Below are positions 1 through 18,400 of a stretch of 36,276 nt of DNA, in pieces. Source of the stretch: a virus; IMG/VR virus record IMGVR_UViG_3300010160_000120, positions 1 through 36,276 of that record, one strand, 5' to 3'. Position 1 is the stretch's first letter. Each line of letters starts with the position of its first letter. The notes beneath the pieces were generated by a model, which did not search any database, was not told the origin of the DNA, and saw only the letters and a list, made by a program, of their open reading frames with translations. The translations under genes were made by a program, and so were the position numbers.

Positions 1-1421
1 TGGAACACCACTGTATGTGGCAGGCCAATACGGTCCAGGTAGTAGGTGAGTCTGGCATTGAGATAGCCAAGATTCTGTTCAATAATCTTCTTACGGATAA
101 AACTGTCCTTGCTGGTCAACAGCTTTAACAAGAACTCTTGGTGATTTTTAAGTGTATTGAGTTCATTCACATGATCCCACGAGATATCCTGCATGGCAGT
201 GTGCTGTAGTTCGTCGATTTGTTCTTGATACGGATCTGACTCACCGGCTTTGACTGTTAGCTGTGTTTCCAGAGTTTTGAGATTGTTCTGATGTTTCAGT
301 GCTTGCTCAACAGAGTCATAGTAAGTATCGGGACGTTTTGACACTTCTCCAATGGCAACAATCTCTTTATTGATCTTGGCCAAGTCGCTGGTGACTTTGT
401 CTAGATATCGTTGTGCTTCTTCCAAATGCTTGACAGCAACAGCAGTCATCTCTTCGTGTTTGTGATCATGCAGATCCTGTTCACAAGCGTGACATTTTTT
501 ATCCTTTAACTTAGCAAGCTCGTCAGCGTACTTTTTTACGCTTCGCTCCGCTTGCGCTGTCGCGCTGTCTAATGTAGCCCGCTCCTTAGTTAGGCTTTTC
601 AGCTTTGCTGTCTGTTCTTCGAACAGCTTCAGGGCAGTATGCTTGGCTAGCTCAGAATTTATGTCTACATTTTCTAATTCCACAATAGCTCTTGCTATTT
701 TTTCCATTTCTTCTGAGTGTTGATTGTTCCAAGCATTTTGCCGTGACGTTAGCGAGTCAACGCTTTGTTGTATTTTTTCGTTGCTTTTTTTAGCGGCTTC
801 AATATCTGCATTTTCTTGATAGATATTGTCCTTGGTAGTCTTGATCATCTCTTTAAGACCTTCTGCTTTTTCACTCAACAGTGTAATACCAAGCAACTGT
901 TCAATAATAACTCTCTGATCATTGGCCTTCATAGATAAGAATGGTTCAGTGTATGTGTTAAGTGCAACAATATGCCTAAACATATCATGACTCATACCCA
1001 ACAAATCATCAAGATCTCGTTGCGTTTCCCGCATGTCGCCTTGTGCATCATCTGTTTCTTCTGTATCCTGTGCTTGATTATTAACAAAGAATTGCAATAC
1101 GTTGGGTTTACGACCACGCTCTATGCGATATTCAGTACCGTCCTTATCAAATGTAAGTGTAACCAACATGTTTTTGTTATTGATTTTGTTGATTAAATTG
1201 TCTTTCTTAATATTTGTAAGTGCATTGCCATACAAAGCATAACTTAATGCGTTTACAATAGTAGTTTTACCAGTACCGTTTCGACTCCCATTGTCATCAC
1301 CACCTTGGTCTAAGTTTTCACCCAGTACAAGAGTTAAGTTTTCCTTATCAAAGTTCACGGCTTGGGTTTGATTACCCACACTCATGAAGTTTTTTACTGT
1401 TAAATCTTTAATTTTTATCAT
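1..1421 (-). CDS. 46: gp46-like recombination endonuclease subunit (SbcC/Rad50 family), 3' end outside window
   Basis: ATPase subunit of the gp46/gp47 complex, which resects DNA ends for recombination-dependent replication and degrades host DNA in T4-type phages. I translated this strand by hand: the frame is open from the ATG at 1421 to the window edge (about 473 codons). Seen: an N-terminal start MIKIKDLTVKNF; a Walker A region with an extended loop, GENLDQGG (34-41) followed by SRNGTGKTT with K52; a coiled-coil-like stretch rich in K, E and Q from about residue 185; and a zinc-hook CHAC with the first Cys at residue 310, followed by a returning coiled coil. The C-terminal ATPase half (signature and Walker B) lies outside the window. 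The start codon overlaps the gp47 stop as ATGA, so the two subunits are probably translationally coupled. Family assignment is firm; activity is inferred from the family. Confidence 0.93.
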   Translation of the reverse strand, partial: MIKIKDLTVKNFMSVGNQTQAVNFDKENLTLVLGENLDQGGDDNGSRNGTGKTTIVNALSYALYGNALTNIKKDNLINKINNKNMLVTLTFDKDGTEYRIERGRKPNVLQFFVNNQAQDTEETDDAQGDMRETQRDLDDLLGMSHDMFRHIVALNTYTEPFLSMKANDQRVIIEQLLGITLLSEKAEGLKEMIKTTKDNIYQENADIEAAKKSNEKIQQSVDSLTSRQNAWNNQHSEEMEKIARAIVELENVDINSELAKHTALKLFEEQTAKLKSLTKERATLDSATAQAERSVKKYADELAKLKDKKCHACEQDLHDHKHEEMTAVAVKHLEEAQRYLDKVTSDLAKINKEIVAIGEVSKRPDTYYDSVEQALKHQNNLKTLETQLTVKAGESDPYQEQIDELQHTAMQDISWDHVNELNTLKNHQEFLLKLLTSKDSFIRKKIIEQNLGYLNARLTYYLDRIGLPHTVVF

Positions 1422-2431
1422 AGGCTATTATAAATGTTCAGCAACAAGTTCTTGTCAAATTCATCAGAATCAATGTTTACAATCTGACTACTGACGATTT
1501 GATCAACACTTTCAAATGATTGAATATCAATGTTGGTGTTGATCTCAATTTCTTTCTTTTCTGCAATTAGTGTAAGTTCGCGAATGTTGTAATCACTGAT
1601 AAATTTCTCTTTAATAAAACTTGCTTCTTCGTAACTGATGTCAATATCTAATGCAACACGCAAATGTTGTTTGGGTTTGATAATTTTATCAGCATCGTCG
1701 ATAAGTTGACTTAGTTTTACAGTTCTAAATGTAGGTTGTGCCGGCCAAGTATGGTATTCTGGAGTGCCATCCCACTCTAACGTCATCATACCGCGTTCGT
1801 CGTCCCATGTATCTGCATAGTTGTGCGGAAACGCATTGCCAATATAGATCATGTTCTGTTGTTGCTGGCGCTTGTGGAAGTGTCCGCTGAATCCTAGCTC
1901 ATAATTTTTAAAGCTATCCAGCTGAATCTCTCCGTGATCTGGCATCTGAACCATGGCATTCATAAAGAAGCTGGGCAGTTCAAAGTGGCCAAATATATAC
2001 TTGCCTCCTTTCTTGCCTACACTTCGCCATTCATCGCCTACAAGCCACGGACAGAGCGTAACATCCCCAATGGTAGTCGGTTCATGTACCACGGTGATTC
2101 CGGGAATATACTTTCCAAATTCGACAGAGTGTATATCCCGCTTGTCTTTGTAATATAAATCATGATTACCAGGGAAAAAGTAAAATGCATCAAACGCCTT
2201 GCCCAGCTTTTCCAAGGCCCTAAGACTATAGTCCATAGTAGTGATATTAAGACTATTGCGATTGTGATGCCAATCGCCCATAAAAATTCCAGTATCACAG
2301 CCTTCCTCCTTTGCTTTAGCAATGTACCAATCTACAAAATCTTCACAATCCTGATTGTGTACACTACTATTACTTTTTAATCCAAAGTGTATGTCCGTGA
2401 AACATGCTACCTTTTTAAACAAATTACTCAC
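1418..2431 (-). CDS. 47: gp47-like recombination nuclease subunit (SbcD/Mre11 phosphoesterase), GTG start
   Basis: Metallophosphoesterase partner of gp46. In the 337-aa form starting at GTG 2431 the calcineurin-like motifs are in order: D13-I-H15, G52-D53 with H55/H56, G88-N-H-D91, then a later GH (GHFELP) and GHFH (SGHFHKRQ), the metal-binding set of Mre11/SbcD enzymes. The frame stays open upstream to an ATG at 2470, but the GTG is favoured: it has a TGAGGA ribosome site 8 bases upstream, and its product begins SNLFKKVACFTDIH, so motif I comes near the N-terminus as usual for the family. The longer start would overlap gp55 by 47 bases with no visible ribosome site. The GTG overlaps the gp55 end by 8 bases and the 3' end overlaps gp46 by 4, placing all three genes in one operon. 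Confidence 0.92.
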   Translation of the reverse strand: MSNLFKKVACFTDIHFGLKSNSSVHNQDCEDFVDWYIAKAKEEGCDTGIFMGDWHHNRNSLNITTMDYSLRALEKLGKAFDAFYFFPGNHDLYYKDKRDIHSVEFGKYIPGITVVHEPTTIGDVTLCPWLVGDEWRSVGKKGGKYIFGHFELPSFFMNAMVQMPDHGEIQLDSFKNYELGFSGHFHKRQQQQNMIYIGNAFPHNYADTWDDERGMMTLEWDGTPEYHTWPAQPTFRTVKLSQLIDDADKIIKPKQHLRVALDIDISYEEASFIKEKFISDYNIRELTLIAEKKEIEINTNIDIQSFESVDQIVSSQIVNIDSDEFDKNLLLNIYNSL

Positions 2432-3257
2432 TGGACGTGTCCTCATTATGACGTTTAAGTGCGGCCGCATGTTCTCCTGCGCCGGTACGTGAATATGATG
2501 GGTTCATACCATTAATCTCTAAAATATCATCTCGAATATTTTGATTACGTTTTTCGATATTAATAACACGAACAAAACTGTTAGTAACAGCCGCAGTGAA
2601 ATACGCAAAAGGATTGTCTGATTTTGATTCATCAAATTGTAATCCTATCTGTGTTAATTGCAAAATAGCCTGACCCTTCATCTCATCATTGTAAGTATAT
2701 CCACGAACGTTACCCCGTGTGGCATACCGCTCACATAATTTTAACATCATTCGTGCTAAAGTTGGAGTAATTTGGCCCGCATCTTTGTCAAACTTGCCTT
2801 TGATCAAATCACCCTTCCAATGGCTTTTGCCCACACATATGAGTTCTTCTTTGTCATCAAACTTCCAATGTTGGAAAGGAGGAAAGTTTACCTTGTCTCT
2901 ATGATCAGCTAGTGTTTTTGGATTCTTCTTCCTGATACCGTTGAGTGGAATATGATCAAAAGTCATGATTCTAAACACCAAATCAGTCTTGAGCATTTTC
3001 TTATAGTCAACTTCACAATCAGCTTGTTTGACTTTTTCTCCAGCGGCTTTTCGACGTTGATATTCTGCGTCACCCAGCCGTTTTGCTCGCGCTCGTTTTG
3101 CCTCAGCCACGGTTCGAATATTAACCTTAGATACATCGGATAGGATTAGATCGTATTGATGAAAACTAGGATCTATAAAGCTACAATATGAGCTTTTACT
3201 TCTATGTATTTCCAACAACATATCCTTGTTGTTTAGGTAATTTACTTTTACTGTCAT
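2424..3257 (-). CDS. 55: gp55-like sigma factor for late transcription, enlarged
   Basis: Phage sigma factor that redirects host RNA polymerase to late promoters. The N-terminal VNYLNNKDML resembles the start of T4 gp55. The conserved core lies at about 163-250: RMMLKLCERYATRG, the GYTYNDEMKGQAILQL helix, FDESKSDNPFAYFT and RVINIEKRNQNIRDD, comparable to sigma70 region 2 as in gp55 proteins. At 277 aa it is clearly longer than T4 gp55 (about 185 aa); most of the excess is a basic then aromatic stretch at about 45-160 (including FPPFQHWKFDD and GKSHWKGDL) between the N-terminal motif and the core. The C-terminus is short and polar (LKRHNEDTSSE), with no obvious hydrophobic clamp-binding tail. 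It is first in the minus-strand operon, with GAGGAA (3265-3270) 7 bases before ATG 3257 and a sigma70-type promoter just upstream. Confidence 0.88.
   Translation of the reverse strand: MTVKVNYLNNKDMLLEIHRSKSSYCSFIDPSFHQYDLILSDVSKVNIRTVAEAKRARAKRLGDAEYQRRKAAGEKVKQADCEVDYKKMLKTDLVFRIMTFDHIPLNGIRKKNPKTLADHRDKVNFPPFQHWKFDDKEELICVGKSHWKGDLIKGKFDKDAGQITPTLARMMLKLCERYATRGNVRGYTYNDEMKGQAILQLTQIGLQFDESKSDNPFAYFTAAVTNSFVRVINIEKRNQNIRDDILEINGMNPSYSRTGAGEHAAALKRHNEDTSSE
2440..2445 (-). promoter_or_regulatory. Ribosome binding site that decides the gp47 GTG start
   Basis: TGAGGA on the minus strand, inside the end of gp55 and 8 bases before the GTG at 2431-2429. Neither upstream ATG in the gp47 frame (2470, or the one that overlaps this site) has a comparable purine-rich site before it. 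Confidence 0.6.
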
Positions 3258-3279
3258 TAGATAGTTCCTCGCAAGTTAC

Positions 3280-3308
3280 ATTATAAACTACGCAGTTAAT
3301 AAAGTCAA
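3280..3308 (-). promoter_or_regulatory. sigma70-type (early/middle) promoter of gp55-gp47-gp46
   Basis: Read on the minus strand: -35 TTGACT (3308-3303), a 17-base spacer, and -10 TATAAT (3285-3280), close to the bacterial consensus. A start about 7 bases past the -10 box would give a leader of roughly 15 bases that includes the GAGGAA ribosome site. The -35 box touches the first base of the plus-strand late promoter box (3308-3315). Confidence 0.75.
3289..3301 (+). repeat. 13-bp box, copy 1 (upstream of late promoter)
   Basis: TACGCAGTTAATA, ending 6 bases before the AATAAATA box. An identical copy at 8910-8922 sits at the same distance from the next late promoter. In this copy the box also lies mostly within the 17-base spacer of the minus-strand gp55 promoter and forms part of an imperfect hairpin (3281-3302, 8 of 9 pairs, loop ACGC). 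Confidence 0.65.
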
Positions 3309-3315
3309 ATAAATA
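3308..3315 (+). promoter_or_regulatory. Late promoter before the gp48-gp25 block
   Basis: AATAAATA followed by ATACA, matching the T4 late consensus TATAAATA at 7 of 8 positions, 23 bases before the gp48 ATG (3339). Single hits to such an AT-rich octamer are expected by chance in a genome like this. The support comes from five such boxes sitting in five short intergenic gaps directly upstream of genes, and from a gp55-like sigma encoded next door. Confidence 0.7.
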
Positions 3316-3338
3316 ATACACCAAAGAGGAATATTATT

Positions 3339-4367
3339 ATGGGTTTATTTGATACAGGCGCTGGGCTTACTTCTACTCTAGGAGCATCTGCAAACGCTAT
3401 AGGAGCAGTCGGCAGTGCGGTAGGCACAGCCAGCCGACTGAGTTCCGCTATTGCATCTGGATTTAACTCAGATGGCGGCGGCAATATTGCTGGCGCCATT
3501 CGATCAATAAACTTACCAGCCGCAGGTGAAGCAATTGGTGATATTATGGGGGCTGTTGCTGAATTCACAGACTCTAGTAATGCAAATGATTGGCGTGTTA
3601 GGTTAAGCATGGCTAAATGGACCAGTTTTAGAGGCAGTCCAGTATTACAACCTTTGAAAGATGCAGGCGGATTAATATTTCCTTATACTCCTAAAATTAG
3701 TATTGCGTCATCGGCGTCGTATGGAACAATTAACACAACACATACAAATTATACTCACCAGGCTTTTAAAAATAGCGATCCAGGTAAGATAACTATTGTA
3801 GCACCTATGTATGTTTCAGATGCTGCCGAAGGTTTATATTGGATTGCTATGGTGCATTATTTAAGAAGTTTAACCAAAATGTTTAGTGGAAATGATCCTA
3901 AGGCAGGAAACCCACCACCTATCATCATGTTAAACGGTTATGGAAATTATGTTTTTAAAAATGTTCCAGTTGTTGTTACTAACATGACAGTGGGTTTAGA
4001 AAATACCTGCGACTATATCAGTGTACCAGTAGTAGGCTCAGCCGCAGGCGAAATAGAAGGCCTTGCTGATTCAATTGGTGGTACTGCCAGTGCGCTGGGC
4101 GGACTTGCAGGCGGCGCATTTGGCGGAGCAGTGGGCAGTATCACAGGAGCCATCGGCAGTATTGCTGGCGGCATTGGACAAGTGGCAGGCCTTGCAGGCA
4201 GTTTAGGACTGGGCGGATCAGTGAGTGGCGGCACAGCACACGTTCCTACCAAGAGTTCATTCAGTGTAACATTGCAACCAATTTACAGTAGAAACAGCAG
4301 TCGCAAATTCAGTCTTGACAGATTTGTATCAGGCGGTTATTTGAACAGCCCAGTTGGATATATTTAA
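3339..4367 (+). CDS. 48: gp48-like baseplate tail-tube cap protein
   Basis: Structural protein expected at the junction of baseplate hub and tail tube. The conserved part (about 86-235) has the pattern of gp48 proteins of environmental T4-like phages: DWRVRLSMAKW, GGLIFPYTPKI, a THTNYTH stretch, YWIAMVHYLRSLTKMFSG, PPPIIMLNGYGNYVFKNVPV and DYISVPV, then VPTKSSFSVTLQPIYSR and the C-terminal SPVGYI. Two Gly/Ala/Ser-rich low-complexity stretches stand out, at the N-terminus (about 8-75) and at about 233-298 between DYISVPV and the C-terminal strand. The start has an AGAGGA site at 3326-3331. It is the first gene of a late unit and is followed after one base by gp53. The name gp48 rather than the related gp54 is the less certain part. 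Confidence 0.78.
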   Translation: MGLFDTGAGLTSTLGASANAIGAVGSAVGTASRLSSAIASGFNSDGGGNIAGAIRSINLPAAGEAIGDIMGAVAEFTDSSNANDWRVRLSMAKWTSFRGSPVLQPLKDAGGLIFPYTPKISIASSASYGTINTTHTNYTHQAFKNSDPGKITIVAPMYVSDAAEGLYWIAMVHYLRSLTKMFSGNDPKAGNPPPIIMLNGYGNYVFKNVPVVVTNMTVGLENTCDYISVPVVGSAAGEIEGLADSIGGTASALGGLAGGAFGGAVGSITGAIGSIAGGIGQVAGLAGSLGLGGSVSGGTAHVPTKSSFSVTLQPIYSRNSSRKFSLDRFVSGGYLNSPVGYI

Positions 4368-4368
4368 A

Positions 4369-4671
4369 ATGGCCGCAACTTATAAAAACACTAGCCCATG
4401 GTTTACCACACCCATTAAAAAGAACTATCTTGATGTGTTACGAATTAGAACAGTCAGTGCTGAGCCAGACGATTTTTTATACGGAATAGAAAGCCAATAC
4501 ACTTACAGACCTGACCTGTTGGCATTTGACTTGTATGGTGAACCTGCGCTATGGTGGGTGTTTATACAACGCAATCTTGATGTGTTACAAGATCCAATAT
4601 TTGATTTTGTGCCCGGCAAGAAAATATATGTTCCAAAAAAATCAAGTTTGTTTAACATACTGGGATTATAA
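4369..4671 (+). CDS. 53: gp53-like baseplate wedge protein
   Basis: A 100-aa wedge component. The pattern is typical of short gp53 proteins of environmental T4-like phages: SPWFTTPIKKNYLDVLRIR, a DDFLYGIESQYTYRPDLLAFDLYG segment read in pieces, the highly conserved PALWWVFIQRN, and a C-terminal F-VPGKKIYVPK that looks like a LysM-type end. The frame extends upstream to a TTG at 4354, but that would overlap gp48; the ATG at 4369 starts one base after the gp48 stop and is preferred. No strong ribosome site is visible, which fits translational coupling to gp48. The next gene starts at the base after its stop. Confidence 0.82.
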   Translation: MAATYKNTSPWFTTPIKKNYLDVLRIRTVSAEPDDFLYGIESQYTYRPDLLAFDLYGEPALWWVFIQRNLDVLQDPIFDFVPGKKIYVPKKSSLFNILGL

Positions 4672-6921
4672 ATGAGTTTTTTAGATAAAGCAACCAGTGC
4701 AGTGGGCAAGGCGGCAGCAATTGCCGGCGTTGCTGTTGTAGCATCCAAAGCAGTCACCAGTTTGGGCGCGGCAACCGGCTTGTCGTCCTTGGTTGATGCA
4801 GTGACTGGTGCATTTAAATCGTTTAACAATTTGTTTAAACAGCTAGACGGAGTGTCATTGCCGTTACCCAATCCGTTACATGCATATGCAAGTTATAATT
4901 ACATATTGGGGTTGGGCATATTGACAGACGCTGAACTAAACGATCCAAATGCAACCTATATGGGAGGTGCTAGACCTCGATTACTTTGTAAATCGGCATC
5001 AACTGATCCCAACAATCGTGTGCAAACTCCCTACGGAAAATTTGATTACTATATTGAAGATTTAGTAATGGAACATCAAATGGGATTTGAAGATGGCGAA
5101 AACACAAACGTCACCAATGTTTCATTCAAAGTTGTTGAACCCTACAGCATGGGTATGTTTTTAACTGCGGTACAACAACTTGCACTGGAACAAGGTCATG
5201 ATACTTGGACAGAAGCGCCGTTCCTGCTAACAATTGAATTTAGAGGAAACAAAGAAACAGGACAAATGGTTAACGTTCCAAACACTTCACGATATATTCC
5301 TATTCTCATCAGCGATATCGATTTTACCGTTAGTCACGAAGGATCTGTGTACACTGTTCAAGGCATGCCATGGGGCGGTACTGGGCTTACTGATGCTAAC
5401 AACAACCTTACTAGCGACGTAACAGCATCCGGCGCCAGTGTACAACAATTATTACAAACTGGCGAAAAAAGTTTGCAGGTAGCACTTAACAAACGTCAGC
5501 AAATGCTGGTTGAAACGGGCGTAATTGATGTGCCAGACGAATATCTTATATTGTTTCCTCAAGATTTATCGTCCAGTGCAACTAGTGGTGCAGGCGGCGA
5601 TACAGAAAACTTTTCTCCGGCCAGCGGCAGCACAGATGCTGGCAGTAGTTCTGATGTTGAAAAATTGTTAGGAGTCACTCGTGGCGGCCCTAATAAAAAT
5701 TTACAACAATCTGGAGATCAAGCTAATGAAATAGGCAAAGCGTTACTGGACTATGACAAAGATAGTGCTACAAAAGATGCAGTACCAATTGGAAAAGAAA
5801 GTGAAGTTTACGACAGCAAGTCTGGAACATTTTTTAAAGGCAAGTTAACCATAACCCCCGGTCAGAGTGATTTTAAATTTTCGCAAGACAGTGATATTGT
5901 CAATGCAATTAATCAAGTAGTGTTAAAAAGTACATACATTAAAAAAGCATTTAACACAGAAAATTTAAGTCCTGAGGGTTACCGAAATTGGTGGAGGGTT
6001 GATTGTCAAGTGTATAACATTGGACCAGTTAGGGCAGACACTGGAACCAAACCCAAATTGTTTGTTTACAGAGTTCACCCTTATAACGTGCATTCCAGTA
6101 GATTGATGCCAGCCGGCCACAGAGCTCCAGGATATGATAATCTCAAATTGCAAGTAGTAAAAGAATACAACTATATCTATACCGGAGCCAATGTAGATGT
6201 TATAAAATTTGAGATAAAATTTAATACTGGATTTTCTTATGAAATGGCCGCAGACGGTTTACAACGAACACAAGACAGTGTTAAAGAAACAGCAGAAGGC
6301 GGCGCAAAAGACAAAACAAAAGAAGTAATAAATCCATTACCTCCAGGCAAATTGCCGCAACCAGGCAGTACTCCAACAATTGTAAAATTTATTAAAACAT
6401 TAACTGGAACTGACCGAGGCGGCGGCGGCGGCCCTGATAATCAAGGCGTACGAGCGGCAAGGTTGTTCCATGATGCTGTTACCAACACGCAAACAGCCAT
6501 GATGGATCTTGAGATGGAAATTATAGGAGACCCTTATTTTATAGCACAAAGCGGAATTGGCAATTACACAGCATCGGCCACGCAGTATGCTAATTTAAAT
6601 AATGATGGAAGTGCAAATTATCAAAACGGCGAAGTTGATATAATGGTAAATTTCAGAACTCCAATTGACATCAATCAAACTACAGGATTGTACACGTTTG
6701 CGGGCGGCACAACTAGATTAGATCAGTGGAGCGGTTTGTACTCAGTACTAAATGTAACCAGTACTTTTAAATCGGGACAATTTAAACAGGTATTGACAGG
6801 CATGCGTCGACCGTTACAAGAATTGCAAGAAGAGTCCACTCCAGCAGACACATTTGTGGCTAATAAAGACGCTCCTCCAGAAGATAGAGAAGTAGCCACA
6901 GGGGACGAATATGACTATTGA
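4672..6921 (+). CDS. Probable baseplate hub protein (gp27-like), 749 aa
   Basis: Likely the hub component that partners gp5. Seen: a small-residue-rich, helix-like N-terminus (1-55); a conserved hub-like block at about 65-245, including YIEDLVMEHQMGFEDG, NVSFKVVEPYSMGMFL, APFLLTIEFRGN and ISDIDFTVSHEGSVYTVQG; a long polar, low-complexity middle (about 250-420) rich in Ser, Gly, Ala and Asp; then a second conserved block with AARLFHDAVTNTQ, MMDLEMEIIGDPYFI, VNFRTPIDINQTTGLY and WSGLYSVLNVTSTFKSGQF. This two-part layout, with DP-Y and WSGLY/FxxGxFxQ patterns, is what I associate with hub proteins of marine T4-like phages, usually annotated only as virion structural. It lies directly before gp5 and overlaps it by 11 bases. 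A five-glycine run at about 585 separates the blocks. The gp27 assignment rests on pattern and position. Confidence 0.55.
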   Translation: MSFLDKATSAVGKAAAIAGVAVVASKAVTSLGAATGLSSLVDAVTGAFKSFNNLFKQLDGVSLPLPNPLHAYASYNYILGLGILTDAELNDPNATYMGGARPRLLCKSASTDPNNRVQTPYGKFDYYIEDLVMEHQMGFEDGENTNVTNVSFKVVEPYSMGMFLTAVQQLALEQGHDTWTEAPFLLTIEFRGNKETGQMVNVPNTSRYIPILISDIDFTVSHEGSVYTVQGMPWGGTGLTDANNNLTSDVTASGASVQQLLQTGEKSLQVALNKRQQMLVETGVIDVPDEYLILFPQDLSSSATSGAGGDTENFSPASGSTDAGSSSDVEKLLGVTRGGPNKNLQQSGDQANEIGKALLDYDKDSATKDAVPIGKESEVYDSKSGTFFKGKLTITPGQSDFKFSQDSDIVNAINQVVLKSTYIKKAFNTENLSPEGYRNWWRVDCQVYNIGPVRADTGTKPKLFVYRVHPYNVHSSRLMPAGHRAPGYDNLKLQVVKEYNYIYTGANVDVIKFEIKFNTGFSYEMAADGLQRTQDSVKETAEGGAKDKTKEVINPLPPGKLPQPGSTPTIVKFIKTLTGTDRGGGGGPDNQGVRAARLFHDAVTNTQTAMMDLEMEIIGDPYFIAQSGIGNYTASATQYANLNNDGSANYQNGEVDIMVNFRTPIDINQTTGLYTFAGGTTRLDQWSGLYSVLNVTSTFKSGQFKQVLTGMRRPLQELQEESTPADTFVANKDAPPEDREVATGDEYDY

Positions 6922-8455
6922 AAATAATTTTAATCAAGCATCATCTGGATCCAGCGACGCTCGCCCTGGTCCGTTTTTAGCAACTGTGGTCGGCCACCAA
7001 GATCCAACATTCATGGGCACCATTGAAGTTGAATTGTTGCGCCCAACTGGTAATAACAGTGACGAAACTGCTTTGCACCAAGTAAAATACATGAGTCCAT
7101 TCTACGGTGTTACTTCGGCCGCTCATCTTGGTTCAAATAATGATTATGCAAGTACACAAAAAAGTTATGGTTTTTGGATGGTGCCGCCTGATGTGGGCAC
7201 AACAGTAGTGGTAATTTTCATAGACGGTGATCCAAGACGCGGATTCTGGATTGGGTGTGTGCAAGATCAAGGTATGAATTTCATGTTGCCTGGACTTGCT
7301 GCCACGCAAAAAGTCGAAGAAGATGTTGAGGCTGACAAAGCAGGAAGATACGGTAGAGTTCCTGTTGCTGAATACAACAAAAAAGTTACCGGGTTTGAAA
7401 ATCCTGATGGCACACAAACTTGGAAACCCAAACATCCGTTAGCAGATGCGCTAGGTAAACAAGGACTATTATTTGACGACATTAGAGGAATCACATCAAG
7501 CAGTGCCAGACGAGAAGTGCCAAGTATGGTGTTTGGTATCAGTACACCTGGGCCGGTGGATAAAAGAAACGGCGCTCCACGTGGCCGCATTGGCAAGGAA
7601 GAATGGAAGATTGATAATGCGTTTGTAGGCAGACTTGGAGGCAGTACATTTGTAATGGACGACGGCGATGCTAGATATTTGCGAAAGAAAACAGCTAGTG
7701 AAGGCCCTCCTGAGTATGCATCTTTAGAAAACGATGAATCTGGCGGCAATGTAGAAATTCCTCATAACGAATTAATACGTTTAAGAACACGCACTGGGCA
7801 TCAAATACTTTTACACAACAGCGAAGATTTAATTTACATTACTAATTCTAGAGGTACTGCTTGGATAGAGTTATCTAGCGACGGCAAAATAGATGTATAT
7901 TCTAAAGATAGTATTAGCATACGAACAGAGAACGATTTGAATTTTTATGCAGATAGAGATATCAACATGGAAGCAAAACGTAATGTTAATATCAAAGCCG
8001 CAAAGCGTTTTCAGAACGAAGCAGGAAAAGATTATAAGCTACTTGTTACTGAAAATGGATTTATAACCACCAAAGGTATATTTCATATAAACACCACGGG
8101 TAATAATAATTTTACATCAGCAGCCGCAACTAATATTAGAAGTGCTGGCAACCATGTAGAAACTGCGGCACAAATTCATATGAATGGCCCAGCCGCTGCC
8201 ACAGCTACAAAAGCAGAAGTTTTGACTACATTTAAATTACCAACAGATATAGAAGGCGACACTGTGGAAAGTATTTTATTAAGAGTACCAACAACTGAAC
8301 CGTATCCCCATCATGAAAATTTAGATCCAGAAAATTTTAAAACAGACAAAACAGATAGAGAAGCGGGCGCCGCCGGCACTGTTCCGGACTTGTGGAAAAC
8401 TTACTCAACCGGGCCTGACGATACATTTACAGTTAGACCGCCTGTGGCCACTTAG
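6911..8455 (+). CDS. 5: gp5-like baseplate hub/spike protein without a lysozyme domain
   Basis: Central spike of the baseplate. The N-terminal OB-fold of gp5/VgrG type is clear at about 15-125: GPFLATVVGHQDPTFMGTIE, YMSPFYGVTSA, YGFWMVPPDVGTTVVVIF and DGDPRRGFWIGCV. The C-terminal third begins with GHQILLHNSEDLIYITNSRG and continues into a repetitive beta pattern (about 320-375: KIDVYSKDSISIRTENDLN, then YADRDINMEAKRNVNIKA), as in the trimeric beta-helix of gp5 and VgrG spikes. The middle (about 130-290) does not look like T4 lysozyme; I see no Glu-Asp-Thr catalytic arrangement there. Either cell-wall penetration is done elsewhere or no enzyme is needed. The ATG at 6911 has GGGGA just upstream and lies inside the end of the preceding gene. 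Confidence 0.85.
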   Translation: MTIENNFNQASSGSSDARPGPFLATVVGHQDPTFMGTIEVELLRPTGNNSDETALHQVKYMSPFYGVTSAAHLGSNNDYASTQKSYGFWMVPPDVGTTVVVIFIDGDPRRGFWIGCVQDQGMNFMLPGLAATQKVEEDVEADKAGRYGRVPVAEYNKKVTGFENPDGTQTWKPKHPLADALGKQGLLFDDIRGITSSSARREVPSMVFGISTPGPVDKRNGAPRGRIGKEEWKIDNAFVGRLGGSTFVMDDGDARYLRKKTASEGPPEYASLENDESGGNVEIPHNELIRLRTRTGHQILLHNSEDLIYITNSRGTAWIELSSDGKIDVYSKDSISIRTENDLNFYADRDINMEAKRNVNIKAAKRFQNEAGKDYKLLVTENGFITTKGIFHINTTGNNNFTSAAATNIRSAGNHVETAAQIHMNGPAAATATKAEVLTTFKLPTDIEGDTVESILLRVPTTEPYPHHENLDPENFKTDKTDREAGAAGTVPDLWKTYSTGPDDTFTVRPPVAT

Positions 8456-8463
8456 GAGCAATA

Positions 8464-8907
8464 ATGAGTTCAAATTCAAAATTATATAAAAAAATAACAT
8501 TGCCAGCAGTGAGTCAACCTGATAATCTTGGCGAAAAAAAATACAAAGGATTTAGTACAGTTAACACTAATACGGAAAATTTTAATCTCTATGATTTTGA
8601 ACTAATAAAACAGGATTTATTCAATCATTTTTATACACGCCAGGGCGAGAGATTAATGCAGCCATCATTTGGCACAATTATATGGGATTTGTTATTTGAA
8701 CCCTTAACGCCTGAAATAAAGAACTTAGTTTTAGAAAATATTAATCAAATAGTTAACTATGATCCTAGAGTCAAAGCAGAGAATGTGACAGTGACAGCGT
8801 ATGACCAGGGCATACAGGTGCAATGCACCTTGGTATTCTTGCCTTATAACATATCACAAACACTTCAACTACGCTTTGATCAAGCCAACGGACTATTGAT
8901 GCAGTAA
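8464..8907 (+). CDS. 25: gp25-like baseplate wedge protein (GPW/gp25 family)
   Basis: A 147-aa wedge protein of the GPW/gp25 family, related to the small wedge component shared by contractile phages and type VI secretion. Seen: YDFELIKQDLFNHFYTRQGE, the family signature QPSFGTIIWDLLFEPLTPE, the helix VLENINQIVNYDPRVKAENV and the final strands LVFLPYNISQTLQLRFDQ. The ribosome site AGGAG overlaps the gp5 stop region (TAGGAG) 8 bases upstream. It ends the first late unit; a late promoter follows in the 46-base gap before gp6. In T4 gene 25 lies elsewhere, so its place between gp5 and gp6 is a rearrangement relative to T4. Confidence 0.93.
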   Translation: MSSNSKLYKKITLPAVSQPDNLGEKKYKGFSTVNTNTENFNLYDFELIKQDLFNHFYTRQGERLMQPSFGTIIWDLLFEPLTPEIKNLVLENINQIVNYDPRVKAENVTVTAYDQGIQVQCTLVFLPYNISQTLQLRFDQANGLLMQ

Positions 8908-8909
8908 AA

Positions 8910-8922
8910 TACGCAGTTAATA
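8910..8922 (+). repeat. 13-bp box, copy 2 (upstream of late promoter)
   Basis: TACGCAGTTAATA, identical to 3289-3301 and likewise ending 6 bases before an AATAAATA box. Here there is no convincing minus-strand promoter and the hairpin of copy 1 is not kept, so sequence and spacing rather than structure are conserved. Confidence 0.65.
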
Positions 8923-8928
8923 TTTGAA

Positions 8929-8936
8929 AATAAATA
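8929..8936 (+). promoter_or_regulatory. Late promoter before gp6 and the giant gene
   Basis: AATAAATA followed by CAATAC, in the 46-base gap between gp25 and gp6 and 17 bases before the gp6 ATG. The ribosome site AGGA (8944-8947) follows it. Confidence 0.7.
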
Positions 8937-8953
8937 CAATACTAGGATAACAT

Positions 8954-11900
8954 ATGAGCTCCATTGATAGACAAAATAACTTGCTAATTACTGAAGATTG
9001 GAAAAAGATTTACCAGTCCTTTAAAAATGCCGATTTCCAAAGCTATGACTTTGAAAACTTGCGTAGGACTATGATTACCTATCTGCGTACAAATTATCCT
9101 GAAGATTTTAACGATTATATTGAGTCCAGCGAATACCTTGCCCTTGTGGATCTTATTGCGTTCTTGGGACAAAGCATAGCTTTCCGCGTTGACTTAAATG
9201 CTCGTGAAAACTTCTTAGAGCTAGCAGAACGCCGTGACAGTGTATTACGTTTAGCAAGATTAATCAGCTACAACGCCAAGAGAAATATCGCCGCTAACGG
9301 TTTACTAAAATTTACCACAGTTAGAACAACAGAAACTGTAGTAGATAGTAATGGACGTAATTTATCAGGACAAGTTATTACATGGAACGATCCGTCAAAC
9401 ACCAACTGGTTAGACCAATTTACTAAAATTATGAACTCCGCAATGCCTGCAACACAGCAGTTTGGAAACCCAGCGGCTAAAGCAGATATTTACGGTATTC
9501 CAACAAGTCAATATAGATTCCAAGGTTCAAATACTGATGTGCCGGTATACACTTTTTCGAAATCCGTAGCAGGTAAGTCTATGAATTTTGAAATTACCAG
9601 CACAACTTTTAGTGGCGAAGAGTATATCTACGAAGAAGCGCCAAAGGTTGGCAATAGCCCGGCATGCATTTATAGGGACGACGGCCACGGCGCCGCCAGT
9701 ATCAATACAGGATTCTTTTTTAATTTTACGCAAGGTACATTAAATGCTGGAGCATTTACAATCAGTCAACCAAGTACAAATGAATCAATTGATATTGCAA
9801 CACAAAATATTAATAATACAGATGTATGGCTATATAGATTAGATCAAAACGGTAAAGAAGCTGAACTATGGACAAAAATTCCAGAGCTAACTGGAAACAA
9901 TGTCATTTATAACAGTCTTAATAAAAGTATAAAAAATATATATGCAGTAGTTACACGGACAGGCGATGCAGTGAGTCTGGCATTTAGCGACGGCACGTTT
10001 GGTACACTGCCTATTGGTGATTTTAGAACTTATTATCGTATCAGTAACGGATTTTCGTATATTATAAATCCCGCAGATATTAGAAATATTTCTATATCTA
10101 TTCCTTATACTTCTCGTAAAGGTCAAAACGAAACATTAACAGTTACTTTGAGTTTAGTCAGCACAGTATCTAATGCAGAATCTACAGAAACTAATGCATA
10201 TATTAAAGCAAATGCATCAGCAACTTATTATACACAAAATAGAATGATAACAGCAGAGGACTATAATATCAGTCCGTTGTCTGTAAATCAGCAAGTTGCC
10301 AAAATAAAATCTGTAAACAGAACTTCTAGCGGTATTAGTAGATACTTTGATCTTAAAGACCCTACTGGAAAATACAGCAGTACAAATTTATTTGGAAATG
10401 ACGGAGTCATATTTCAAGAATCCTATGTATTGCCTATAAAATTTAAATATAGTACTAAGGTAGATATTGAGGGAATTATATATAATAAAATTATTGATAT
10501 AATTAAAAATCCAGATCTAAGAAATTTTTATTATTCAAATTTTATTAATTTTTTATCAACTAGTTTAAATATTATATGGTACAACAAAACATCTGACACT
10601 GCTTCAAGCACAGGCTATATTGGCGAATTAAACGATATACGACCATATCCTGTGGGCTCATATACCTCAACAGATTTAAAATACTTAACAGCCAATGCTT
10701 TAGTAAAATTTACAGCACCAACCGGTTATTATTTCGATCTTAACAACAATAATGCTCTAATTCTTGGAGATGCTACTCTGTCTAACAGGGTGTCTTATAT
10801 ATGGGCTCAAGTAGTATCGGTTAGTGCCAACGGTACTGCCGCTGGAACTGGTCTACTATCTAACGGACTTGGTCCAATTACTTTAAATCAAGTAATACCA
10901 ACAACTGCCCAAATAACTCAGATTATTCCAAAATTATCCTTATCAATTTCTAATTCTGTTATTACTACAATGATAGATTTAATATACAGTAATAGACCGT
11001 TTGGGTTAAGGTATGATGCAACTGATCAGAGCTGGAAGATAATTTTTGAAAATAATCTAGATTCAATTTCAGGATTTAGTTTATCAAATCAAGGCAACGA
11101 TTCTAATTTAAAAAACGATGCTAGTTGGATCTTACTATTTACAACTGATAATGATTTTTATACTGTCACTACTAGATTACTAAGATATGTATTTGAAAGC
11201 GATGATGAAATACGATTCTTTTTTGAAGATAATTCAACAGTTTATGATAATACAACTAACTCAGTGGTTAAAGATTCAATTAATATATTAAGCATAAATC
11301 CAAAACCAGGCCCAACCGGAAAACCGTTTACACAGGATTTAAAATGGGACATTGTGTCGTCTTTTAATGGATTAGATGGTTATATTGATAATAAAAAGAT
11401 AATAATATCGTTTCAAGATTCTGATAATAATGCTGTTGTTGACAATCCTCAGTTATTTCTTGACATTGTTGATTACACAAATATCACAAATCCTTACATA
11501 GTACAAGAAAAATACGCTATTTCTGCAGGACAAAACGATTATCGTTATAGAGATAATTCAGATAATAAAATAAGATTTTTTTCAACACAATCTAGTGTAG
11601 GATCTTTGTCAAATTATGCCAACGGCCAGTATTTTTATTTTGCTGATACTGGTGTTGTTAAAAAATTAAATTCAACAAAATCAACATTAGTTCCAACCTT
11701 GGATTATAAAATATATGTTGGCAGAGACAATTTAAAATTTCAGTATATTCACAGAGCAGATTATCAATCAAGAATAGATCCAGGCGCAAGTAATATAATG
11801 GACATATATGTTTTAACTAAAAATTATGATACATTGTTCCGACAATGGCTAGACGGATCAACTACAGCACAACCGTTACCGCCAAGCTCTGCTGAACTGT

Positions 11901-12406
11901 ATAATTTAATTGCACCTAAATTAAATCTAATTAAATCTATAAGCGATGAAATTGTATATCATCCAGTAACATACAAATTGTTATTTGGAGCAAACTCATC
12001 TATTGATTTACAAGCTAGTTTTAAAGTTACAAAGAGTCTAAATTCAGTAGTATCAGAAAACGATATTAAATCTCGTGTAATAACAGCAATTAATCAATTC
12101 TTTACTCTTGATAATTGGAACTTTGGTGATATATTTTATTTTACAGAACTATCAACTTATGTAATGACACAGCTTGCTCCTGATATCACTAATTTTATAA
12201 TTGTACCAAGACAAGACGGCGCCTATTTTGGTAGCTTATTTGAAATAAAATGTCCAAGCGATCAAATTTTTATTAGCAGTGCTACTGTAGACGATATTGA
12301 AATAATTACCGGAATAACTTCGGGGAATATTAAGTCAGTTACCGGCCAAGCACTTAGTGCAGTATCTTCACAAAACACAACAAGTTCAACATACGGAAAT
12401 ATCTAA
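8954..12406 (+). CDS. 6: gp6-like baseplate wedge protein, enlarged (1150 aa)
   Basis: Main ring-forming wedge protein. The N-terminal 125 residues match gp6 well in pattern: TEDWKKIYQSFKNADFQSYD, FENLRRTMITYLRTNYPEDF, ESSEYLALVDLIAFLGQSIA, FRVDLNARENFLELAERRDS and LRLARLISYNAKRN. The C-terminus (about 1000-1130) also fits gp6: SFKVTKSLNSVVSENDIKSR, a NFGDIFYFTELSTYV helix and IVPRQDGAYFGSLFEIKCPS. T4 gp6 is about 660 aa, so the middle carries several hundred extra residues. These are rich in Asn, Ser, Thr and Ile and look beta-structured, with no domain I can name. Its stop overlaps the start of the giant gene as TAATG, so the two are probably coupled. Confidence 0.88.
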   Translation: MSSIDRQNNLLITEDWKKIYQSFKNADFQSYDFENLRRTMITYLRTNYPEDFNDYIESSEYLALVDLIAFLGQSIAFRVDLNARENFLELAERRDSVLRLARLISYNAKRNIAANGLLKFTTVRTTETVVDSNGRNLSGQVITWNDPSNTNWLDQFTKIMNSAMPATQQFGNPAAKADIYGIPTSQYRFQGSNTDVPVYTFSKSVAGKSMNFEITSTTFSGEEYIYEEAPKVGNSPACIYRDDGHGAASINTGFFFNFTQGTLNAGAFTISQPSTNESIDIATQNINNTDVWLYRLDQNGKEAELWTKIPELTGNNVIYNSLNKSIKNIYAVVTRTGDAVSLAFSDGTFGTLPIGDFRTYYRISNGFSYIINPADIRNISISIPYTSRKGQNETLTVTLSLVSTVSNAESTETNAYIKANASATYYTQNRMITAEDYNISPLSVNQQVAKIKSVNRTSSGISRYFDLKDPTGKYSSTNLFGNDGVIFQESYVLPIKFKYSTKVDIEGIIYNKIIDIIKNPDLRNFYYSNFINFLSTSLNIIWYNKTSDTASSTGYIGELNDIRPYPVGSYTSTDLKYLTANALVKFTAPTGYYFDLNNNNALILGDATLSNRVSYIWAQVVSVSANGTAAGTGLLSNGLGPITLNQVIPTTAQITQIIPKLSLSISNSVITTMIDLIYSNRPFGLRYDATDQSWKIIFENNLDSISGFSLSNQGNDSNLKNDASWILLFTTDNDFYTVTTRLLRYVFESDDEIRFFFEDNSTVYDNTTNSVVKDSINILSINPKPGPTGKPFTQDLKWDIVSSFNGLDGYIDNKKIIISFQDSDNNAVVDNPQLFLDIVDYTNITNPYIVQEKYAISAGQNDYRYRDNSDNKIRFFSTQSSVGSLSNYANGQYFYFADTGVVKKLNSTKSTLVPTLDYKIYVGRDNLKFQYIHRADYQSRIDPGASNIMDIYVLTKNYDTLFRQWLDGSTTAQPLPPSSAELYNLIAPKLNLIKSISDEIVYHPVTYKLLFGANSSIDLQASFKVTKSLNSVVSENDIKSRVITAINQFFTLDNWNFGDIFYFTELSTYVMTQLAPDITNFIIVPRQDGAYFGSLFEIKCPSDQIFISSATVDDIEIITGITSGNIKSVTGQALSAVSSQNTTSSTYGNI

Positions 12407-15400
12407 TGACTGATTTTACAAATCCATCCGGCTCTAAAGGACTTAGTGTAAATTTAATACCTAACTTTTTTAAAACAGATGCTAACAAAAGATTTTTACA
12501 AGCCACAATTGATCAACTAGTAACACCTGGAGCTGTCAAAAAAGTTAATGGTTTTGTAGGAAGACAATACTCTAAATCAACCAGCGGGACAGATTTATTT
12601 GTTGAAGCCGCTGATACCGCCCGACAGAATTACCAGTTAGAACCATCACTAACTGTGCAAGATACGCTAGGCAACAACACATTTTTTAAAGATTACATAG
12701 ACTACATTAATCAGCTAGAAGTGTTTGGAGCCAATACAACTAATCATGCAAGACTTAATAAGCAAGAATTCTATTCATGGAACCCGCACATTGATTGGGA
12801 CAAATTTGTTAATTTCCAAAATTACTACTGGTTATCCTATGGCCCTAGCACCATTACAATTTACGGTCAGCAATTAACTGCGGAAAGCACATATAAAATT
12901 TCTTTAGAGTACCAAGGTCAAAATAATCAATATGTTTTTACTCCAGACGGATTAACACCAAACCCCTCAATACGACTTTATAGAGGACAGACTTATAAAT
13001 TTATTGTATCCAGTCCAGGTAATCCAATCAGTATTAAAACTGCAAGATCGTTAGGCATTGCTGATCGGTATGTGATTTCAGGTATTGATTCTTACGGAAT
13101 TGAAAACGGCGTAATAACTGTAACAATCCCAGTAAATTCTCCAAATGTTTTATATTACCAAAGCGAAACCGATATCAATCTAGGCGGCGTCTTTGAAATA
13201 TATGATATAGATGAAAATTCTTTTATCAACGTTGCAACAGATATTTTAGGAAAAATTACGTATACATTAAGTAATGGGGTTGCATTGTCCAACGGTATGA
13301 AAGTGTCGTTTGGCGGCCAGGTTTCTCCTTTGGAATACGCAACAGGCGAATACTATGTTGAAGGAGTAGGCACAGCAATTAAATTAATTGAAAAATCTAT
13401 TTTAGAAATATCTACAACCTATACAGAATCTGAAACATTGCTGTTTGACTCGAACAATTTTGATACAGACGCCTTTAGTGATTCAACCGGCTTTGCAAAA
13501 ACATTAGATTACATGGTTATTAATCGAGCCAGCCGAGACCATAACCCTTGGTCTAGATACAACAGATGGTTCCACAAAGATGTAGTAACTGCCAGTGCAA
13601 CATTTAACAAGACCACAGCGTCTTTAGATCAGAGTCTTCGAGCAGTTAGACCTATTTTAGAATTTGATGCCAACTTAAAATTGTTTAATTTTGGTACAGA
13701 TGCTATAGCTGATATTGACTTAGTTGACTCGTTTACTACAGATGCATTTTCAACAATTGAAGGTAGCTTAGGATACAGCATTGATGGTATTAGTTTATCA
13801 GAAGGTCAAAAAATCTTATTCTTATCAGATACGGATAGACTAGTTAAAAATAAAATCTTTAAAGTGGAATTTATTGATGTTAAACACTTGTCAAGCAATT
13901 CTAGACAAATTCATCTAGTAGAATTACATACGCCGGTTATCAACGAAGTAGTGCTAGTTAAACAAGGAAAAGCCAACCAAGGATTAATGTATTGGTTTAA
14001 TGGCACCACGTGGGTACTAGCACAACAAAAATCAGATACTAATCAATTTCCATTGTTTGATGTTGTTGACAATGACGGAATTAGTTTTGGAAATTTAGAA
14101 AAATACGACGGTAGTACATTTAAAGGAACTCACTTATTTTCATATAAAGTTAATGCTGACGGGATTATTGATACTAATCTTGGATTTGGATTATCATATA
14201 GAAATATAGAAAACGTAGGCGATATTGTTTTTAATTTTGATTTTGATATTGATACATTTTCTTACAAAAAAATAACCAATATTATATCAAGCCCAATTAA
14301 CACAGGATATTTACTGACAAAGGATTATGCAGGAAATACAGTTTATACAAATGCATGGGAAAAATGTAACGTAAAAACAACTCAACCTGCTATTCGAATT
14401 TATAAAAATTCAAACACTGTTAATAATTTTAAATTAGATATTTTTGATAATGTGCTAGATCTTGCAGATCTACTAGTTCGAGTCTACATTAACGGAAAAC
14501 GTATAGCTAAAGATAAGTGGTCAATAGCAGATAGTTCAGATTATAAAATTATAAAATTTAAAACTGATGTTTTAATCACTGACGTTATTACGATTAAGGC
14601 ATATGCCGCCCAGCCAGTTAATGATAATGGATTTTATGAAATTCCTGTAAACTTGCAACATAATCCTATGAACAGCGCATTATCGTCGCTGACATTGGGA
14701 GAAGTAATTGATCACGTTGACAGCATTGTTGATAACATTTATATGGATGATATCAACATAGAAAAAACTAACTTTGATACGTCAACTGCTCTTACTTTTG
14801 TTGGAACATTTCCAGGAGCAAGCAATTTACGAGATTTAGGTAATATTACCCCGTACGGCACAAAATTTGTTCAACACAGCGGCCCAGCAAGTATTTCTTT
14901 ATATCATATCACAACTGATACTAATAATGTAATACGATCAGTGCAGGAAAGTAGAGACAAATATGTTCAATTCAAAAAGAATTTCTTAGCAATTGCTTTA
15001 AATTTGGGGGTTGAAACAACCCCTGCAAAACAAGTTGATTTAATATTAGAAAAGATTAATAAAGATTATTCAAAGACAAATTCGTATTATTTTAGTGACA
15101 TGGTTCCGTATCGAGCAAGCACAACAACCAATATAACTGTAGTCGATGCTCGTATAAAAACATATCCTTTAAAAACAGCATTCACTTTAGACACATTGTC
15201 TAGCAGGGCAGTTATTGTTTATGTTAATAATGACCAATTAATTTATAACAAAGATTATTATTTCAGCGAGCAAGGATTTGTTGTTATCTCAATAAATTTA
15301 CATGAAAGCGATGTTATAACTATTTCTGAATATGAAAGTACAGACGGCTCGTATGTCCCTGAAACTCCTACAAAATTAGGCATGTGGCCAAAATATGAGC

Positions 15401-18400
15401 CAAAAATTTATCTTGATACAACGTTGGTCACTCCAAGATTGATGATACAAGGACATGATGGTAGCCATATATTGGCTTATGGTGATTACAGAGATGGTAT
15501 TATACTTGAACTAGAAAAACGAATTTTTAATAACATCAAAATAGAATATAACACAGAAATTTTTGATATTGCAGAGTTGTTACCTAGCTATAATCGACCC
15601 GGTGACTATTCTCGTACAGAGTTCAATCAAGTACTGGCCCCGTCATTTTATCAGTGGTCATCATTAGTTGATAGAGATTTCACAAAGCCTTTGAGCTTTG
15701 ACAGAAATAATCCGTTTACTTTTAAATACAATTCTTTTAGTACACCAGACGGAAAAGAAGTTCCAGGTTACTGGCGCGGAATTTATCAATGGATTTATGA
15801 TACAGATAGACCCAATCTATGCCCGTGGGAAATGCTAGGATTTAGTTTAGAACCTAGTTGGTGGCAAGGCTCCTACGGCCCTGCACCGTACACTAGTGAT
15901 AATCTTGTAATGTGGAAAGATATTTCAGAAGGGTTTGTAAGAAAACCTGGCGTTCCTGCAATACAATTAAAGAAATATATTAAACCATTTTTAATACAGC
16001 ACTTGCCGGTTGATAACGAAGGTAATTTAGTTAACCCATTAGTTTCTGGATTTGTGAATGGAACAATAACATCAAATTCTCAAACAGATTTTGTATTTGG
16101 TGATGTTGGTCCTGTTGAAAATGCATGGCGACGTAGTAGTCATTATCCGTTCAGCGTAATATTAAGTGCAATTTTATTAAAACCAGCTGACACTTTTGGA
16201 AAATTATTAGATAGATCCAGAATCAAACGAAATCTATGCGGCCAACTAATTTATAGTGAGACAGGATTACGAATCAAAGTATCAGATATTACATTACCAA
16301 GCATTTATTCTAGTGAAGGCCGTGTGCAAACATCTGGTATTATTAATTATATTGTAAATTATATTCTGAGTGATAATTTAAAATCATACAACAACTACAT
16401 TTATGATTTGTCTTATTTGAATACACAATTAAGTCATAGGATTGGGGCATTTACAGCAAAGGAAAAATTTAAATTATTATTAGATTCTAAATCTCCAATC
16501 TCTACAACAAGTGTGTTTGTCCCGCCAGAGGATTATACACTAATATTAAATTCATCGTCTCCTATAAAACGATTAGTTTATAGCGGAGTTATCATTAGTA
16601 AAATAGCTGATGAATATGAAATTAAAGGATATAGTAGGACTGCTCCTTATTTTAAATATTATCAATATCAGCAATCTGGAGCCACTATAAATATTGGCGG
16701 CATTTCAGAAAATTTTGTTGCATGGACATCGGGCGAGAAATATGCAATAGGTACGTTAGTTAAGTATAACAACAAATATTTTAGATCAACAGCAACGCAT
16801 ACTAGTGCAACTACCTTTGACATATCATTCTATCAATCGTTGCCACGTTTGCCAGTAATTGGCGGCAGAGATGCAATACTTAGAAAATCATGGGATAAGT
16901 CTAGTGTTAATGTAGCTTCTTATGGTACTAAATTTAGCGCAATACAAGATGTGGTTGATTTTCTACTAGGGTACGGCGAATATTTAAAAGATCAAGGATT
17001 TATATTTGATGAATTTAATCCTGTATTAAAAGCAGTTACTAACTGGGAAACTAGTGCAAAAGAATTTTTATTTTGGACGACACAGAATTGGTCCAACGGT
17101 CAAGACAAATGGAAAGATTGGATTCCAGGCATACGTCTGAAATATGGTGACATTGTTCGTTACAACGGAGATTACTATAAATCCAACAAAGATGCAACCT
17201 CTAGTATATTTTTAGAATCTGCATTTACAAAACTTGACGAATTAGCTAGCAATGGCGCCGCCGCAATAAGTTTAAGTCCCGCCGCCGCAAAACTAACATT
17301 TAAAACAGCATTAAGCGTAATAGATGATATCCGTAATCCTTTTAACGGATACGAAATTTTTAAAGTTGACGGCACCCCGCTTGAACCAAGTTTTATAAAT
17401 TCTTTTAGAGAAGACAATGCAGTCAGTTATAGTCCACGAGGTGATGCTGGTATTTACGGAGCAACCTTTTATCTAATACAACAAGAGCATGTTGTCTTAT
17501 TAAACAACAGCACAATATTTAATGATACAATTTTTAAACCAGAAACAGGATACAAACAAGACAGGATTAAAGTTTCTGGATATGTTAGCACAAATTGGTA
17601 CGGCGGACTAGATATTCCAGGTTTTATCCTTGATGTAGCTAAAATACAAAACTGGACTCCATGGGAAGATTATGACTTAGGAGATATTATAAAATATAAA
17701 CAATTTTATTATACTGCAAGTAAATTCTTACCCGGTGCAGTATCTTTTGTTAGCGAAGATTGGATATTACTCGATAAAAAACCAACGACTCAGCTGTTGC
17801 CTAACTGGACCTATAAAGCAGAACAATTTACTGATTTTTATAGTTTAGATAGTGATAATTTTGATACAGCACAGCAAACATTAGCTCAACACTTAATTGG
17901 ATACCAAAAAAGACAATATCTTACAAATATTATTAAAGATGACGTAAGCGAATTTAAATTTTACCAAGGAATGATTCGTGAAAAAGGAACTCAAAACAGT
18001 TTAAACAAATTATTTGACGTAAAATCAGCCTCGGCCGAAGAAAGTCTAACATTCTACGAGGAATGGGCGATTAGAACAGGACAATATGGCGCCAGCGAAG
18101 CATTTGAAGTTATCGAGTTTACACTAGACGAATCAAAAATTAGAAGTAACCCGCAAGGATTCTACTTATCGGAGAATAGTGATGATCCTAACGATTTTAT
18201 TATTACATACAATGCAAACCAATTATATTTAAAACCTTCCGGGTATAAATCAAACCCATGGCCCGAGTTAAAAACATATCACCCTTATTTAAGAAGTGGT
18301 GGATATTTTAGATCGGATGAAGTATCTGTAACCTTAGTTTCTTTAAATGACATCTTATTAAAAGACCCAGCTGATTTTAAACCAAACTCTTATATAGCAG

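Follow-up and report, generated by a model that had tools for sequence, protein, structure and literature searches.

A promoter pair fused with a palindrome upstream of gp55 in giant T4-like phages looks like a built-in early-to-late switch

Late promoters of T4 and the gp55 locus of its giant relatives

The textbook promoter of T4 late transcription has a lone −10-type box, which is read by gp55 with gp33 and the sliding clamp gp45, the clamp acting as activator. T4 middle promoters have a MotA box near −30 in place of the −35 element. In the accessible part of PMC2988020, T4 late promoters show no sequence conservation at −35 and have no upstream or −35 element, gp33 is placed near −39 and −36/−35 without reading the sequence, and nine late promoters have A at −13. 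For phages CBB and GAP32, the accessible part of PMC5259590 describes an ATAAATA late motif at 35 places in addition to RpoD-like promoters, which in CBB are said to have a UP-like element. The same text places the CBB gp55 gene just downstream of an RpoD-like promoter with a variant −35, which belongs to a divergent second RpoD-like class whose members lie near DNA-synthesis genes.

The DNA analysed here (the window) is a single virus record of 36,276 bases from a jumbo T4-like phage. The named phages closest to it belong to the PA5oct group of Pseudomonas phages (∼45% identity), followed by Phosso, RaK2, 121Q and others. Its gp55 locus resembles a T4 late promoter region in having a TATAAATA-type box of the A(−13) variant, an adjoining gp55 homologue and a structural gene as the driven gene. 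It differs from the T4 promoters, as far as these are described in the accessible part of PMC2988020, in having a palindrome that is conserved and spans about −38 to −21 in T4 numbering. With CBB it shares the ATAAATA late motif, a gp55 gene behind an RpoD-like promoter and a divergent gp55 locus, whereas the CBB gp55 promoter has a variant −35 and that of the window the consensus-type TTGACT (comparison with the accessible part of PMC5259590). This part of the CBB account makes no mention of an upstream late element or of a back-to-back promoter pair, and an open-access literature search at the level of titles found no report of a T4-type late promoter bearing such a dyad. The gp55 promoter had been labelled early in a previous reading of the window from its sequence alone (the sequence-only reading); the promoter is indeed of sigma70 type, but the label is doubtful given the class of its CBB counterpart.

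The junction between gp55 and the structural operon

The features of the locus, together with a second late promoter of similar build, are as follows.

3–1418, minus strand: gp46, SbcC-like subunit (phrog_77, E 2e-69), cut by the window start
1418–2470, minus strand: gp47, SbcD-like nuclease subunit (phrog_100, E 3e-66), overlapping the end of gp55
2424–3257, minus strand: gp55, late-transcription sigma factor, 277 aa (phrog_12791, E 1e-73)
3280–3308, minus strand: sigma70-type promoter of gp55–gp47–gp46, with TTGACT at 3308–3303, a 17-bp spacer and TATAAT at 3285–3280
3283–3300, plus strand: 18-bp imperfect palindrome (dyad), ATWAAMTACGCASTTAAT / ATAAACTACGCAGTTAAT, ending 8 bp before ATAAATA
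3308–3315, plus strand: late box AATAAATA, ending 23 nt short of the structural-gene ATG; base 3308 is common to both promoters
3339–4367, plus strand: virion structural protein (phrog_12050), first gene of the divergent late operon
8904–8936, plus strand: second predicted bipartite late promoter, upstream of gp6 (8954), with a dyad at 8904–8921, 8 bp from ATAAATA at 8930–8936

Three minus-strand genes, gp55, gp47 and gp46, point leftwards, and a baseplate/structural operon runs rightwards from 3339. The positions given in the sequence-only reading for both the minus-strand TTGACT-17-TATAAT promoter (−35 at 3303–3308) and the abutting plus-strand late box from 3308 are right to the base. The predicted gp55 matches the T4 gp55 chain 7d7c_F by profile (E 4e-8, query residues 144–236 on chain residues 22–116), and its N-terminus is about 120 residues longer than that of T4 gp55. 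The AlphaFold model of gp55 has a mean pLDDT of 69.6 and is best in the N-terminal half; a Foldseek search of the PDB gave no match at E ≤ 0.001 and no fold match for the extra N-terminal part, and gp55 matched no Pfam family. The PF02916 profile matched none of four records, the controls likewise being without a match. Downstream of gp6, a plus-strand ORF of 4825 aa occupies 12406–26883.

The sigma70-type site matches the consensus at 11 of 12 positions with a spacer of 17, and transcription from it is expected to start near 3273. It is the only 11/12 site among those listed for positions 1–18000. The whole window holds two (Markov-1 mean 2.8), whereas 0.003 such sites would be expected by chance on the gp55 strand of the 81-bp gap. 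No further promoter-like site is among those listed for the minus strand of 1–3257, and gp55, gp47 and gp46 therefore probably depend on this one sigma70 promoter. The other 11/12 site, at 34077–34050 on the minus strand, falls within the beginning of the ORF at 34013, in antisense orientation, and is expected by chance at the rate of the window. What makes the late box credible is that no heptamer is more enriched upstream of genes in this phage group than ATAAATA (87 genes against 2.7 expected, or 32-fold, among 750 in seven group sequences); it stands just upstream of an ORF start in 126 of 259 occurrences, compared with 8–16% for ten other AT-rich heptamers. If the box is numbered as in T4 (−13 to −6), the late start would be expected near 3321. 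CTAAATA, a variant that many relatives have at their gp55 junction, is weaker than ATAAATA: it is found upstream of genes 16 times against 1.9 expected, and just upstream of an ORF start in 28 of 182 occurrences, no better than some control heptamers.

Comparison of the gap in related phages, which the sequence-only reading had proposed as a check, bears out the abutment. We used the best 80 (L001–L080) of at least 596 IMG/VR relatives, a sample biased to close kin, of which 79 are readable and one is cut before the promoter. In 77 of the 79 the seven-base box joins the −35 directly and the spacer is 17 bp, so that the unit TATTTA[TG]TTGAC...17...TATAAT is kept at zero offset, with 55 distinct cores. 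In L066 the late box overlaps the −35 by one base; L064 has its sigma70 promoter 45 bp away and keeps the dyad and late box; L061 keeps the box and the sigma70 promoter and has lost the dyad. Mean identity to the window over the 77 relatives is 0.876 for the 36-bp core and 0.791 for the spacer, compared with 0.39 for the third positions of conserved degenerate gp55 codons, a value exceeded by the core in all 77 relatives and by the spacer in 76. Since the junction is kept while the synonymous sites of gp55 are near saturation, we conclude that the promoter pair is real and selected. The distance from the core to either start codon varies (mostly 16–26 nt), and insertions are tolerated on both outer sides. 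The string TATTTAKTTGAC occurs once per contig, at gp55, in 11 of 12 large contigs, the twelfth having TTGAT instead. A sigma70 spacer has by itself no reason to be conserved in sequence; that of the relatives is kept, unlike those of usual host sigma70 promoters, because the 18-bp dyad of the late promoter lies within it.

A palindrome at a fixed distance from late boxes

Most of the sigma70 spacer is taken up by the dyad, which extends 3 bp into the sigma70 −10. Both this conserved element and the recurrence of back-to-back early/late pairs had been overlooked in the sequence-only reading. At gp6, where there is no divergent gene, a second copy precedes an 8-base box AATAAATA from 8929. The 12 inner bases, taken from the gp55 junction and the gp6 copy, served as the seed of a search covering 334 late boxes adjoining an ORF in 22 group sequences. 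Matches peak at 7–8 bp from the late box, with 28 hits against 16 over 38 other distances, and a dyad at 7–8 bp was found for none of 459 late boxes not adjoining a gene. Three of the 28 are gp55 junctions (G004, G014 and G031), leaving 25 other late promoters, several of which are orthologues (the G007 and G021 sites are near-identical). The six outer bases, absent from the seed, are also conserved in 24 sites outside gp55, where the palindromy of the 18 bp is 0.67 against 0.39 (reached in none of 300 permutations). Among strong dyads, 36 of 40 nearby same-strand late boxes lie 25–26 bp from the dyad start. In related sequences chosen by gp6 protein homology alone, the dyad stands 7–8 bp before the late box in 21 of 21 at a threshold of at least 13 of 18 matches, a level reached by 1.3% of shuffles. 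At the junction itself the dyad scores above the random 99.9% level in 78 of 79 relatives, L061 being the exception, a result that is partly circular owing to the origin of the seed; the spacing peak, the six outer bases and the gp6 set are independent of that origin.

L064 keeps the dyad and late box while its sigma70 promoter stands 45 bp away, which indicates that the dyad belongs with the late box. Given its fixed distance and the lack of an upstream or −35 element in T4 late promoters, the late promoter with a dyad is, on its sequence, a bipartite late-promoter subclass. Most other late boxes are without a dyad. The dyad and late box also precede the tail-tube gene (phrog_13438) and a phrog_11259 gene annotated without a function. 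The dyad is weak among the more distant isolates: one was found at the gp55 junction of Atu_ph07 and one elsewhere in the 300 kb of Phosso that were read; dyads are at chance-level scatter in PA5oct and absent from RaK2, with no convincing dyad regulon in either. The exact pattern ACGCASTTAATN{7,8}ATAAATA, which is too strict, matched none of 20 further contigs.

Several other assignments of the dyad were rejected. That it is part of the sigma70 promoter only does not agree with gp6, which has a dyad and late box with neither a sigma70 promoter nor a divergent gene, nor with L064. An upstream element common to all late promoters was dismissed on a pooled profile of 126 boxes, which is flat apart from AT content, as are the pooled profiles of the PA5oct and RaK2 late boxes. 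By analogy, a sequence-specific factor near −30 at a fixed distance from a −10 element would work much as at T4 MotA promoters, except that it would be paired with the late box and bind a palindrome. The gp55 promoter also has a consensus −35, and no MotA-type box was seen by eye in its spacer on the gp55 strand. A further T4 comparison is DsbA, which according to the accessible part of PMC2988020 binds DNA at AT-rich sites that overlap a pair of late promoters, though with low affinity and with no effect in vitro.

The tail-tube genes with a dyad and late box are, in contig coordinates, at G004 34622(−), G005 3204(−), G006 94432(+), G009 5225(−) and G012 7700(−). Just 4–5 nt separate the late box from the ATG, so the late tail-tube mRNA may be leaderless or nearly so. 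The strong dyads at G020 13629(−) and G007 18330(−) overlap the late box or start region rather than lying upstream.

Use of the shared block

As judged from its sequence, the fusion of the two promoters with the palindrome in giant T4-like phages looks like a built-in early-to-late switch. We put at about an even chance the reading that the 36-bp block is a conserved two-way promoter in exclusive use, with a dyad-binding factor that helps the late promoter and shuts the sigma70 promoter. Host sigma70 polymerase would start gp55–gp47–gp46 on one strand and polymerase carrying gp55 would start the baseplate operon on the opposite strand; since the promoters share DNA, one polymerase at a time would occupy the block. 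The palindrome would be read by a factor, which might be a dimeric activator of its own or belong to the late polymerase. Since the dyad at gp55 lies between the −10 and −35 of the sigma70 promoter, its occupation would shut that promoter as well as help the late one. Once the gp55 polymerase and the dyad factor had taken the site, transcription of gp55–gp47–gp46 would stop and gp55 would limit its own gene.

The footprint of sigma70 polymerase extends from about −55 to +20 and that of the late form is of similar size. With these sizes both complexes could not occupy the junction together, nor could a dimer on 3283–3300 coexist with sigma70 polymerase. Mutual exclusion at gp55 is plausible and is probably reinforced by whatever binds the palindrome; we infer which proteins bind at the block, this exclusion and a feedback by which late transcription would hold down the gene of its own sigma factor. 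The sequence-only reading had gp55 polymerase at the late box probably blocking sigma70 polymerase on the other strand. The geometry, zero offset and core identity fit such exclusion, but the dyad is at least as likely an agent of the switch as steric block by the late polymerase alone. The strict spacing of the dyad points to a factor that touches the late polymerase, as activator or polymerase part, rather than to a plain repressor. The N-terminal extension of gp55 is a candidate reader, although phrog_12791 also covers RaK2-type gp55, where no dyad regulon was seen. The absence of the dyad from L061 and the 45-bp separation of the sigma70 promoter in L064 mean that some of the phages do without one overlap or the other. 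In T4, gp46 and gp47 are needed late in infection, so a strong shut-off would be workable only if the proteins already made were stable.

A wider proposal, possible but put forward tentatively, is that T4-type late promoters come in two classes in these phages, the second with a sequence-specific palindrome as a −35-like element that either a dedicated factor or the gp55 N-terminal extension would read, and that at the gp55 locus the bound element both activates the late baseplate operon and represses the sigma70 promoter from which the sigma gene is transcribed. Such a one-site toggle, if true, would end the early phase as the late one begins. The overlap of the dyad with the promoter of the late sigma gene offers a concrete model, open to testing, of how the early-to-late transition could include negative feedback, and the bipartite subclass suggests that some late promoters of giant T4 relatives have a further sequence-specific input.

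The closeness of the promoters might instead be compact packing, two promoters placed end to end in a short divergent gap with every base serving one of them and no regulatory exclusion, which we consider unlikely. A 372-kb relative (G001) has 38 consensus sigma70 sites, of which 8 are opposed by a late box no more than 46 bp away, where 0.59 would be expected; the seven pairs other than gp55 are freely spaced, with the late box −1 to 22 bp upstream of the −35, and seven of the eight have a divergent ORF. Such loose spacing counts against a switch, as the closeness may reflect compact divergent gaps; early/late closeness is either partly a matter of such gaps or occlusion is a general device. 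The distant isolates likewise keep both promoters at other distances. The gp55 gene is divergent from the structural operon in all eight jumbo isolates compared, from PA5oct to Salicola SCTP-2 (it is not divergent in cyanophage S-SSM5), and in all eight gaps an opposing late box lies 0 to 72 bp from the best −35 (RaK2 2, 121Q 4, CBB 4, SCTP-2 11, PA5oct 22 and Phosso 72 bp). In Atu_ph07 a TTGACA abuts the late box with no −10 at the right distance. The gp47 and gp46 genes are annotated downstream of gp55 in most of these isolates, SCTP-2 excepted. Exact abutment is thus not needed in every phage, PA5oct and Phosso being wider. Against packing alone, 77 of 79 relatives keep one and the same offset at gp55 while the other G001 pairs are freely spaced, insertions are tolerated on both outer sides of the junction, and overlapping binding sites would exclude each other physically even so. 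What is special at gp55 is only the fixed offset and the dyad. Proximity as such, in which the sequence-only reading saw an arrangement that could act as a switch, recurs at seven other consensus sigma70 sites of G001, with a late box within 22 bp.

The dyad could also be an operator for a phage repressor of gp55 and a few late operons rather than an activator site. Its position between the −35 and −10 of the sigma70 promoter would suit a repressor, as would its overlap with the late box or start region in G020 and the closely similar G007 and G021. A repressor operator needs no strict spacing, yet 36 of 40 late boxes keep theirs, and RHH_1 and HTH_3 proteins were found in none of the four records searched, two of which are fragments; we regard this explanation as distinctly improbable. 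Less probable by far is that TATTTA is a UP-like part of an extended sigma70 promoter and its late-box reading coincidental. It is AT-rich and at the usual place of a UP element, of the kind attributed to the CBB promoters in the accessible part of PMC5259590. However, among the 39 sigma70 matches listed in G001, TATTTA[TG] joins a full −35 only at gp55, with one further match overlapping it by a base; the box points to the structural gene, whose start is mostly 16–26 nt away, and the association of ATAAATA with gene starts is strong. The idea that TATTTA is an extended −35 used generally in these phages was rejected as well.

The loosely spaced back-to-back pairs of the 372-kb relative suggest that promoter occlusion may be a wider strategy. 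The seven pairs other than gp55 are at minus-strand sites 318688, 315148, 289688, 286992, 245222, 243067 and 225707.
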